Positions 10,199 through 14,104 of a DNA stretch of 64,000 nt are shown here, one piece after another (position 1 is the stretch's first letter; each line of letters starts with the position of its first letter). The notes beneath the pieces are model-generated. The model saw only the letters and a program-made list of their open reading frames with translations, was not told where the DNA came from and made no database searches. The position numbers and the translations under genes are program-made. Source of the DNA: Bacteroidales bacterium (GTDB taxonomy: Bacteria; Bacteroidota; Bacteroidia; Bacteroidales; UBA12077); the NCBI GenBank assembly GCA_030611105.1, contig JAUWQL010000004.1, positions 1 to 64,000 of the forward strand, in the 5' to 3' direction.

Positions 10199-10846
10199 GT
10201 GTCTAAATGTAAATTAATGGGTAGAATTAAAGTTTTTATTTACTTCATATTTTTCTTAATTGCAAATAGTGCATTTGCTCAGGTTGATACAATTACTTTC
10301 CGGTTTGTACCGGATGTAGCAACATATAGAATTAGATGTCAAGCTCAAAAAGTTAATGTAGTCTCAGGCGATACCACTTTCACAGACTTTCAAATTGCAG
10401 ATACTGTTAATGGCGCATACACATTTGATTGGGGAGGAACAAAGAATCCAAATGTAGATGAAATACCATTAGTAACTTATGAGTTTGATGGACCAGGAGT
10501 ATATTCTTTTACTCTCTCTGTTTATGAGGACGCTTCAGGAAAAACTTTCATAGAAACTAAATCATTTGAGATTCGTGATTTAATTAGAGTCCCTAATGTT
10601 TTTACTCCTAATGGAGATGGTGAAAATGATCTTTTTGTGGTAAATTCAAACGGCATTGTTCCACTCGATATTTCAATTTATAGTCGTACAGGTACATTGG
10701 TTTATAGTGCAAGAGCTCCGATAATTATTTGGGATGGAAGAAATTCATCAGGATCAGAACTAAGCGAAGGAGTATATTTCTACATCTTAAAATCTGATGA
10801 TCCTGCGGTCCTTGATCAAAACGGATTTCTGCATTTGTACAGATAA
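10199..10846 (+). CDS. secreted protein with T9SS type B (gliding-motility-associated) C-terminal domain
   Basis: Signal peptide, then PNVFTPNGDGENDLFVVNSNGI...ISIYSRTGTLVYSA...WDGRNSSGSELSEGVYFYIL. The start may be the ATG at 10217. Confidence 0.85.
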   Translation: MSKCKLMGRIKVFIYFIFFLIANSAFAQVDTITFRFVPDVATYRIRCQAQKVNVVSGDTTFTDFQIADTVNGAYTFDWGGTKNPNVDEIPLVTYEFDGPGVYSFTLSVYEDASGKTFIETKSFEIRDLIRVPNVFTPNGDGENDLFVVNSNGIVPLDISIYSRTGTLVYSARAPIIIWDGRNSSGSELSEGVYFYILKSDDPAVLDQNGFLHLYR

Positions 10847-10987
10847 TCACCCAAATTAATTTAATCATTATACTATTTATACAGCAATATGACAAATTGT
10901 TGTCATACATGCTTATACGACTATTTGTAGTTTAAAATGGCTTGATATTGGGAAATGCGTACCGTATTACTTTTTTTAAATTTTCAT

Positions 10988-10995
10988 TATCTTTG
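10988..10995 (+). promoter_or_regulatory. TAnnTTTG -7 promoter box of the DUF4492-cydAB operon
   Basis: TATCTTTG about 18 nt upstream of the ATG at 11014. Confidence 0.35.
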
Positions 10996-11013
10996 GTTAA
11001 TAAATCTCATTTA

Positions 11014-11235
11014 ATGAAAAAAGGAAACATCTTTAAAAGAATATTTCTATTTTATTACGAAGGTTTTAAAAATATGACAGTTGGTAAAAGGCTTTGGTTT
11101 ATTATCATAATAAAACTTTTTATCATGTTTGCCATTTTAAAGATATTCTTTTTTAAAGATTTCTTAAATAATAAGTTTGATACTGAAGAAGAAAAAGGGA
11201 ATTATGTAATTGAGCAATTAACTAAGGGCTTGTAA
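11014..11235 (+). CDS. DUF4492-like small membrane protein preceding cydA
   Basis: MKKGNIFKRIFLFYYEGFKNMTVGKRLWFIIIIKLFIMFAILKIFFF...; position and pattern match DUF4492 proteins next to cydAB in Bacteroidota. The listed ORF start (10942) is probably too early. Confidence 0.75.
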   Translation: MKKGNIFKRIFLFYYEGFKNMTVGKRLWFIIIIKLFIMFAILKIFFFKDFLNNKFDTEEEKGNYVIEQLTKGL

Positions 11236-11386
11236 AGAAATAAAGTGGACAAAATTCATAAAGTTATTTTGTGCTATAACAAGGCGTAAAAGTTGCGAAT
11301 AGCCACAGTTTATTTAATAACTTTTACAACGCAGTTATAGTGCAAAAGAATAAGTGAAGATGTTCAGTTTATTTCTTTACAAGCCC
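11226..11386. mobile_element. MITE-like palindromic element (161 bp) with TAA target duplication
   Basis: GGGCTTGTAAAGAAATAAA (11226-11244) and its perfect reverse complement TTTATTTCTTTACAAGCCC (11368-11386); inner arms also pair imperfectly (TTTTGTGCTATAAC vs TTTTGCACTATAAC); flanked by TAA at 11223-11225 and 11387-11389. Confidence 0.75.
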
Positions 11387-11406
11387 TAACCCTAAAAATA
11401 CAAACA

Positions 11407-12972
11407 ATGATTGAACATCTTGATTTAGCCCTGGTCAATTGGTCGAGGGCGCAATTTGCACTTACAGCACTGTATCATTGGCTATTTGTTCCGCTTACTT
11501 TGGGGATTACATTTATTATAGCCTTTATGGAAACTCTGTATGTTAAAACAGGTGATCCGGAATGGAAAAAAATAACGAAGTTCTGGATGACACTGTTTGG
11601 TATTAACTTTGCCATTGGTGTTTCAACAGGTATTATTCTCGAGTTTGAATTTGGAACTAACTGGTCTAATTATTCCTGGTTTGTTGGGGATATTTTCGGA
11701 GCTCCTTTGGCAATAGAGGGTATTATGGCATTTTTTATGGAATCTACTTTTATTGCCATCATGTTTTTTGGCTGGAACAAAGTAAGTAAGAAATTTCATT
11801 TACTCTCAACCTGGTTGGTAGCTATAGGGTCTAATTTATCTGCATTATGGATTTTAATTGCTAATGGATGGATGCAATATCCTGTAGGGATGCATTTTAA
11901 TCCTGATACAGCCCGAAACGAAATGCTTGACTTCTGGGAGGTGTTTTTATCTCCGATAGGAATAAACAAGTTTTTACATACCATTACTTCTTCTTATGTA
12001 TTAGCATCGGTTTTTGTTATTGGTGTTAGTGCCAGGTTTTTATTAAAAGGAAGAGAGCAATTATTAGCTAAACGAAGTATCATAATAGCTACTATTTTTG
12101 GTTTAGTAAGTAGCATGTTTCTTATTTATACCGGCGACGGTTCTGCTTACCAGGTTGCCCAAAAACAACCGATGAAACTTGCTGCTATGGAAGGATTATA
12201 TGAAGGATCTGAAGGAGCCGGTCTTATTCTGCTTGGTATGCCAACTCCGGGAAAAGAAATTAATGATGGAAAAGACGATTATGTTTTTAAGTTTGAGATT
12301 CCAAAACTTCTTTCATTTCTTGGTTACAGAAATGCAGATGCATTTGTGCCCGGTGTAAAAGATATAGTTGAAGGAGGATTCGAATACGAAGATAAAAACG
12401 GAGAAACTCAGATTGCATTATCCGCTCTGGAAAAAATTGAGAAGGGTAAATTGGCAATTAATGCATTATCTGATTATAAGAAAGCTAAAGAATCAGAAGA
12501 TGTGGTTAAACAAGAAGAATATTTAAAAATTTTCAGAGAAAACTTTAAATATTTTGGATATGGATTTTTAAATGATCCTAAGAGTATTATTCCTAATGTT
12601 CCGATAACATTTTATAGTTTTCACATAATGGTTGCTCTGGGATTTTGGTTTATTCTGCTCTTTGCACTCGTATTATTTTTTATTTTAAAAGATAAACTGA
12701 TAGGGAAAAGATGGCTTTTACGTTTGGCAATAATTACTGTTCCTCTGGCTTTTATTGCTTCATTATCAGGGTGGATTGTTGCAGAGGTTGGTCGTCAGCC
12801 ATGGACCATTCAGGATCTTTTGCCTACTGTTGCTTCAGTTTCACAGATTGATGCAAGTGCTGTTCAAATAACTTTTTGGTTGTTTACTTTGGTGTTTACA
12901 GCATTACTAATTGCTGAGCTGAAGATTATGTTTAAGCAAATAAAAATCGGACCTAAAGAAGGAGGACATTAA
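11407..12972 (+). CDS. cydA: cytochrome bd ubiquinol oxidase subunit I
   Basis: CydA: WSRAQFALTALYHWLFVPLTLGI, FGINFAIGVSTGIILEFEFGTNWSNYSWFVGDIFGAPLAIEG, GWIVAEVGRQPWTIQDLLPT. Confidence 0.98.
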   Translation: MIEHLDLALVNWSRAQFALTALYHWLFVPLTLGITFIIAFMETLYVKTGDPEWKKITKFWMTLFGINFAIGVSTGIILEFEFGTNWSNYSWFVGDIFGAPLAIEGIMAFFMESTFIAIMFFGWNKVSKKFHLLSTWLVAIGSNLSALWILIANGWMQYPVGMHFNPDTARNEMLDFWEVFLSPIGINKFLHTITSSYVLASVFVIGVSARFLLKGREQLLAKRSIIIATIFGLVSSMFLIYTGDGSAYQVAQKQPMKLAAMEGLYEGSEGAGLILLGMPTPGKEINDGKDDYVFKFEIPKLLSFLGYRNADAFVPGVKDIVEGGFEYEDKNGETQIALSALEKIEKGKLAINALSDYKKAKESEDVVKQEEYLKIFRENFKYFGYGFLNDPKSIIPNVPITFYSFHIMVALGFWFILLFALVLFFILKDKLIGKRWLLRLAIITVPLAFIASLSGWIVAEVGRQPWTIQDLLPTVASVSQIDASAVQITFWLFTLVFTALLIAELKIMFKQIKIGPKEGGH

Positions 12973-12973
12973 A

Positions 12974-14104
12974 ATGTTTGAAAGTTTATCACATTTAGCA
13001 TTACAACAATATTGGTGGGTAATTATCTCACTATTAGGGGCTATATTAGTTTTCTTATTATTTGTTCAGGGTGGTCAAACACTGATTTACACTTTAGGAA
13101 AAACAGATATGGAACGTCGTCTCCTGATAAACTCATTAGGTCGAAAATGGGAATTTACATTTAGTACTCTGGTAACATTTGGAGGAGCATTTTTTGCATC
13201 TTTTCCATTGTTTTATGCCACAAGTTTTGGAGGAGCATACTGGGTTTGGATGTTAATCCTTTTTGCTTTCATTATTCAGGCTGTTTCGTATGAATTTAGA
13301 TCAAAGCCAAATAATTTTTTAGGAGCAAAAACATACGAGGTTTTTCTTTTTATAAACGGAGTATTGGGAACAATTTTATTGGGAATAGTTGTAGCAACAT
13401 TTTTTACGGGTTCCGAATTCTCGGTAAATGAAATGAATTTCTCAAAATGGGAAGGTGCTGCAATGGGACTTGAGTTAGTGTTAAATCCTCATAATCTTTC
13501 ATTAGGATTAGCTATATTCTTTCTGGCCAGAGTTCTTGCTATCCTTTATTTTATGAATAATATTGATGATGAGAATATCTTTAGCAGATCGAAAAAGCAG
13601 TTAATTTATAATGCAATTCCTTTTCTTGTATTCTTTTTAGTTTTTGTAATCTGGTTAATGTTTATCGATGGTTTTGCTTATGATCCTGTAAGTAAAAAAG
13701 TTTCATACGAATCCTATAAGTATCTGCATAACTTTTTACAAATGCCATTGGTATTGATCATATTCTTATTAGGAGTTGTTCTAGTTTTACTTGGAATTGG
13801 TAAATCGATATTCACAATTTGCACAAAAGGTATTTGGGTTGCCGGAGCAGGAACAATAATGACTGTTTTAGCTTTGTTTTTATTAGCAGGATTTAATAAT
13901 ACAGCATTTTATCCATCAACATTTGATTTGCAGAGTTCACTTACCATTGAAAATGCATCATCGAGTAAATATACGCTTAAAGTTATGGGCTATGTTTCTT
14001 TAATGGTGCCATTTGTGATTGCTTATATTTGGTATACCTGGAGGTTAATGAATAATAAAAAGATTGATGCAGATGAAATGAATGAAGATATTCACATTTA
14101 TTAA
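12974..14104 (+). CDS. cydB: cytochrome bd ubiquinol oxidase subunit II
   Basis: CydB N-terminus WWVIISLLGAILVFLLFVQGGQTL; multi-TM; directly follows cydA. Confidence 0.96.
   Translation: MFESLSHLALQQYWWVIISLLGAILVFLLFVQGGQTLIYTLGKTDMERRLLINSLGRKWEFTFSTLVTFGGAFFASFPLFYATSFGGAYWVWMLILFAFIIQAVSYEFRSKPNNFLGAKTYEVFLFINGVLGTILLGIVVATFFTGSEFSVNEMNFSKWEGAAMGLELVLNPHNLSLGLAIFFLARVLAILYFMNNIDDENIFSRSKKQLIYNAIPFLVFFLVFVIWLMFIDGFAYDPVSKKVSYESYKYLHNFLQMPLVLIIFLLGVVLVLLGIGKSIFTICTKGIWVAGAGTIMTVLALFLLAGFNNTAFYPSTFDLQSSLTIENASSSKYTLKVMGYVSLMVPFVIAYIWYTWRLMNNKKIDADEMNEDIHIY

Follow-up and report, generated by a model that had tools for sequence, protein, structure and literature searches.

A Bacteroidales family of hairpin MITEs with ISAzo13-type ends, one copy of which is inserted ahead of cydA

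The window, i.e., the whole stretch of 64,000 nucleotides analysed from a Bacteroidales genome (G000; G, C and L numbers denote genomes, contigs and loci), encodes the small protein DUF4492 followed by subunits I and II of cytochrome bd oxidase (Table 1). Ahead of cydA, a 161-bp near-complete hairpin flanked by TAA and featuring a perfect 19-bp terminal inverted repeat (TIR) was found, with GGGCTTGTAAAGAAATAAA at 11226-11244 and its perfect reverse complement at 11368-11386; the repeat reaches 20 bp once the flanking A/T is counted. The element has a G+C content of 31% and contains no ORF of at least 60 aa, in agreement with the initial annotation. In the whole 64-kb window, perfect 19-bp inverted repeats with a gap below 400 bp were detected for this element only (the scan counted two pairs, both fitting overlapping registers of its one repeat), and 20 shuffles of the window yielded none. 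The 167 nt comprising the element and its TAA flanks fold into one hairpin of -68.6 kcal/mol (z = -12.2), which none of 200 shuffled sequences equalled, confirming the pairing of the inner arms that had been described from the sequence. Covariance model R1 scored the element at 172.5 bits on the plus and 64.7 bits on the minus strand. Rfam covariance models gave no match at E<=1 in 10800-11700, and the window element had no match in plasmid and phage collections.

Table 1. Features of the DUF4492-cydAB locus and of the inserted hairpin element (window coordinates).
Feature	Position	Strand	Evidence or remark
DUF4492 ORF	11014..11235	+	PF14899, E 1.1e-28; C-terminus swapped by insertion (..EQLTKGL* vs ..EQLTNPKNTNND*)
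Target-site duplication, left copy, TAA	11223..11225	.	Single TAA in empty site of L022/L019, TTAACTAATCCTAAAAATA
Hairpin MITE, 161 bp	11226..11386	+ (orientation used in modelling the family)	Fold, BLAST, covariance model
Left TIR, presumed transposase-binding end, GGGCTTGTAAAGAAATAAAGTGGACA	11226..11251	+	Best window site, ISAzo13-family IS-end matrix
Apical core of hairpin, AGGCG..AATAGC..TTATT..CAACG	11282..11332	+	Common to hairpin elements with other ends
Right TIR, GGGCTTGTAAAGAAATAAACTGAACA on minus strand	11361..11386	-	Second-best site, same IS-end matrix
Target-site duplication, right copy, TAA	11387..11389	.	Comparison with empty sites
cydA, cytochrome bd oxidase subunit I	11407..12972	+	PF01654, E 2e-168
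cydB, cytochrome bd oxidase subunit II	12974..14104	+	PF02322, E 2e-71

The element had been placed between DUF4492 and cydA, which holds for its site but not in the sense of a strictly intergenic position, as the DUF4492 ORF takes its final codons and its stop (..LTKGL*) from the left end of the element. In 12 of the relatives compared across L019 to L032, the frame of DUF4492 continues to a stop overlapping the cydA start (ATGATTGA). In the window, KGL stands in place of the eight tail residues NPKNTNND, and the gap between DUF4492 and cydA now amounts to 171 nt. Judged by these reading frames, the insertion truncated DUF4492, broke an ancestral 8-nt overlap with cydA and moved the stop 171 nt upstream. 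The long hairpin is separated by 20 nt from the cydA start codon downstream and is probably transcribed, since the flanking genes point in the same direction; a Bacteroidota-type promoter (TTTG..TANNTTTG) was not found in 10801-11410. An 8-nt DUF4492/cydA overlap is seen in many Bacteroidales (window 11014-11407 compared with relatives L019-L032), which suggests a translational coupling of the uncharacterised small protein DUF4492 with the bd oxidase. Moreover, locus L024 (G016:C238) carries a family copy at 118-275, approximately 2.2 kb upstream of cydA, at a site differing from that in the window.

Loci of close CydA relatives were compared at the site of the element. An empty site, TTAACTAATCCTAAAAATA, with a single TAA was observed in L022, of which cydA shares 94.8% nucleotide identity over 1,500 bp, as well as in L019, L023, L025 and more distant relatives. 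Among the relatives examined, an identical filled site occurs only in L018 (same contig as G010:C87), where the element is 98% identical. The empty site in a close relative and in many others identifies the element as a genuine insertion, and the single TAA upholds the initial annotation's reading of the two flanking TAA triplets as a 3-bp target-site duplication. Conservation of the hairpin at this site across distant relatives, named there as evidence against mobility, was not observed, as those relatives carry plain sequence. The quartet including the window, L018 and L022 is balanced (26/29/28 informative sites), and such contradictory site patterns in the three closest species make it unnecessary to suppose a precise excision in L022. 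Presence and absence of the element among these species were probably sorted by recombination or reflect a young polymorphism.

Further copies were sought by BLAST and model searches. At other loci, family copies with TTA/TAA duplications were detected in the window's own genome (two), in G018 (at least seven, full or partial) and in G014 (at least ten, many of them at contig ends because repeats break assemblies), with additional copies in G010 and G016. The element is thus not a singleton, absence of a second copy having been named in the initial annotation as evidence against its proposal. In G000, one copy lies at C152:78779-78943, the sequence at C82:13888-14053 matches the model with differing ends, and C69 retains a decayed trace. 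Full copies measure 158-167 bp including the duplication and are flanked by TAA/TAA or TTA/TTA; TTA or TAA on both sides was recorded for G018 C172, C316, C82, C111, C61 and C273, G014 C84 and C127, G010 C111, G016 C238 and C338, and G000 C152. Within 394 genomes of the order, the TIR pattern was present in 23, at most 13 times per genome, and the reversed control pattern in about 17, at most twice per genome. The TIR pattern clusters in G136, G193, G277 and G366. The same ends enclose other interiors in L184, L185, L187 and L203, and L201 (G366:C45) has lost its interior, leaving approximately 46 bp flanked by TTA; sharing of the ends only, together with the interior-less copy, suggests that it is the ends that the transposase requires.

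Several variants were noted beside the typical copies. L201 and G366:C203:5285-5322 are derivatives of approximately 46 bp comprising little beyond two ends back to back. G193 features 13 matches to the TIR pattern, and its elements L187 (294 bp) and L203 (211 bp) have ISAzo13-type ends and interiors with different palindromes. Furthermore, L112 (G014:C187:1311-1629) is an element copy with another palindromic sequence of approximately 150 bp (AGAAAACGTCA..TGACGTTTTTT..) in its apical loop, bordered by CTATA on both sides and thus representing an element within an element.

Insertion sequences with matching terminal repeats, for which a search had been recommended, were found in the ISAzo13 family, in six families of the class other than that of the window. 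L177, obtained from the search with the MITE TIR pattern, spans 1,283 bp (TAA at both ends counted) with inward ends, possesses the TIRs GGCGTTGTAATTAAATAACATGTACA / GGCAATGTAACAAAATAATGTGTACC and encodes a 415-aa protein matching NF033519 transpos_ISAzo13 (E 4e-163) and PF07592 (E 5e-131). The other ISs originate from an independent PF07592 search. Among them, L226 (1,279 bp, TAA/TAA, perfect 18-bp TIR GTATCTGTAACGAAATAA) was also found without the MITE pattern, and L227, L228 and L229 are further ISAzo13-family ISs with such ends; the two flanks of L228 differ (TTA and TAA), not every copy being clean. On nine contigs of G216, GGGATTGTAACGAAATAAA lies beside the transposase C-terminus, preceded by TAA or TTA in eight of the nine. 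Based on a matrix of ISAzo13-family IS ends, the element ends ranked first and second of all window positions on both strands (21.1 and 17.4 bits; next 10.6 bits), a matrix not wholly independent in that some ends were located via the MITE-derived pattern, L226 being independent. Pattern matches in transposase loci were 7 to 33 fold above the shuffled expectation in all of the seven loci but L232, where there were none. The ends and the TWA flanks, seen in MITE and IS copies, are accordingly common to the element and to ISAzo13-family ISs, and 3-bp duplications have been reported for ISAzo13 and its eukaryotic counterpart Zator (PMC10045372). The at least nine near-identical IS ends at contig breaks of G216 (L215, L217, L219-L225) suggest recent ISAzo13-family activity in that genome.

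It is very likely that the window carries one copy of a Bacteroidales family of hairpin MITEs of approximately 160 bp moved in trans by an ISAzo13-family transposase. Such a transposase would recognise ends of approximately 18-26 bp (about GGNNTTGTWANNNAATAANNTGTACA) and would insert the element at TWA (TTA/TAA) with a 3-bp duplication; from the shared ends and flanks we infer that it may actually have moved this copy. The empty sites, the multiple copies, the duplications and the matching IS ends all speak for a non-autonomous element that is mobilised in trans and generates a 3-bp duplication on insertion. No PF07592 / ISAzo13 transposase was found in G000 and 19 congeners, the assemblies of which are fragmented and incomplete, hence no autonomous ISAzo13 partner was identified in the window's own genome; likewise, an intact ISAzo13-type IS was not found together with the exact MITE subfamily in one genome. 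IS copies in G136 and G216 are frame-broken or cut by contig ends, and the G136 ISAzo13 genes were discarded as partner ISs, being frame-broken with no clear ends. The copy ahead of cydA is probably immobile and stranded now, as the genus yielded no such gene. The covariance model had no match inside L177, L226 and L228, and the element therefore did not arise from these ISs by simple internal deletion.

A different partner had initially been considered, namely IS5-related groups. For the IS5/ISL2/IS1031 group, TNA duplications are known, to which the 3-bp TWA duplications conform, and IS4/IS5-type DDE genes are present in the genus. However, no examined PF01609 or PF13586 locus has GG..TTGTWANNNAATAA ends, PF13359 is absent from the genus, and both the ends and the duplication occur in ISAzo13-family ISs. 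These three protein families were therefore rejected as partners, no IS4/IS5-type locus checked in the genus having matching ends, and movement by an IS5/ISL2/IS1031-type transposase is regarded as very improbable. An apparent IS between two ends on G060 C197 was also dismissed, as it encodes a sigma-factor-like protein and has repeated contig ends. Instead of a mobile element, the strong covarying hairpin just upstream of cydA could moreover represent a cis-regulatory RNA fixed in the cydAB operon, but only one relative among those examined has the site filled, and the same sequence occurs at unrelated sites with duplications. A cis-regulatory origin is refuted by the empty sites and scarcely credible, whereas a secondary regulatory effect at the cydA locus is possible.

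The ISAzo13-mobilised MITE reading is compatible with more than one origin of the conserved stem. Alignment A1 comprises 18 copies drawn from four families; of its 65 pairs, 30 have changed on both sides while remaining paired. Such changes occupy 107 cells vs 32 in shuffles (0/500), a count that is no probability since the copies are related; the equally related slid-register controls gave far fewer such pairs (6-12). RNAalifold, unaided, returned 27 of 53 pairs with both-side changes. As compensatory changes keep the stem, the folded strand (RNA or single-stranded DNA) itself is probably under selection. In the test for the strand that folds, G-T and A-C mismatches numbered 68 to 41, a non-decisive excess from counts that are not independent. 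Quasi-palindromes are correctable by template switching, and the stem of the MITE might instead be maintained by templated correction from arm to arm during replication, in line with the tolerance of both G-T and A-C mismatches. Yet unpaired positions and asymmetric internal loops, which such correction would be expected to remove, persist at constant places across copies from several families, and in the apical core the sequence is preserved besides the pairing. Templated correction therefore appears unlikely, though it retains some weight.

When 398 genomes of the phylum were scanned with the model, two of the matches, G000:C82 (L236) and G727:C22 (L234, right end ATACCATTTCTGCTTCAATATGTCGCATA), proved to have ends quite unlike those of the family, and their scores partly reflect plain hairpin pairing. 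Similarity of L234 to a G014 copy, residing mostly in the apical core, reached 45, with at most 28 in 300 shuffles; that of L236 was marginal (38, matched by one shuffle). A BLAST search with L234 against plasmids retrieved one and the same 49-nt stretch from Martelella (E 1e-7), Ralstonia and Cupriavidus; searches continued from those matches led to Mitsuaria, Comamonas and Diaphorobacter. Each plasmid core forms the tip of an extended hairpin whose arms and ends do not resemble those in the window, most sharing the stem/internal-loop pattern, and the annotated plasmid hairpins lie outside annotated genes. Over 15 sequences, core pairs covary in 59 cells vs 19 in shuffles (0/500). Among Pseudomonadota loci, the window model reached only L237 (Martelella, E 5e-4), the other plasmid hairpins being linked via L234 and via each other, and homology across phyla thus depends on successive matches that pass through L234. 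Rfam had no match over the hairpins in L233, L234 and L236-L239, and six 14- to 16-mers of the core were not found in papers. A Cupriavidus plasmid hairpin element with the ends CTAGTCCACTGAATCA(T/C)TGAAAT was located at approximately 2434-2616 of L239/L240. The different hairpin ends would presumably correspond to different transposases. We tentatively consider, with somewhat more doubt than confidence, that the core of approximately 48 nt (asymmetric internal loop, AGGCG../..CAACG shoulder) is a module on putatively mobile hairpins of approximately 160 bp with unrelated terminal repeats in Bacteroidota and Pseudomonadota. If this is true, the module rather than the ends is conserved and probably serves the element, e.g., in transcript protection or processing or as a single-strand folding aid in transposition.

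Compared with the ISAzo13 family (PF07592 / NF033519), the element shares ends of about GGNNTTGTWANNNAATAA and the 3-bp TWA duplication seen in L177, L226-L229 and the G216 copies, but it encodes no transposase, and those ISs are not the source of its interior. The nearest precedent for a structured mobile hairpin of approximately 167 bp is YPAL / RU-2, palindromic MITEs of Yersinia that form a hairpin over their full length and lie between genes, strong conservation of the RNA structure having been reported for YPAL (PMC2267715; PMC2759123); in contrast, the target duplication of these enterobacterial elements is TA (PMC2759123), and RU-2 as printed differs from the element in both ends and core. 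MITEs of Porphyromonas gingivalis (BrickBuilt, MITE239, MITE464/PgRS, MITE700) are likewise non-autonomous Bacteroidota elements with ends common to ISs, but share these with IS5-family ISPg, their printed ends differ from those of the element, and BrickBuilt and 464/PgRS contain internal tandem repeats (PMC4596501). The Cardinium MITE, from the same phylum and with a named partner IS, derives from a defective IS982-family IS (PMC9769881), whereas the window element combines ISAzo13-type ends with an unrelated interior.

The element represents a new MITE family, and the initial annotation was right as to its kind and wrong only in the tentative IS family. No paper linking ISAzo13 with a MITE family was found in the open literature searched, most subscription papers being outside its scope. 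The results contribute a MITE family whose ISAzo13-type partner is well supported, a modest novelty; the recurrent structured core is of more interest. Bacterial MITEs are usually seen as passive IS remnants. If a covarying core is indeed common to elements with different ends and from different phyla, at least some MITEs would be structured and would themselves fulfil a conserved function, a proposition open to direct testing.
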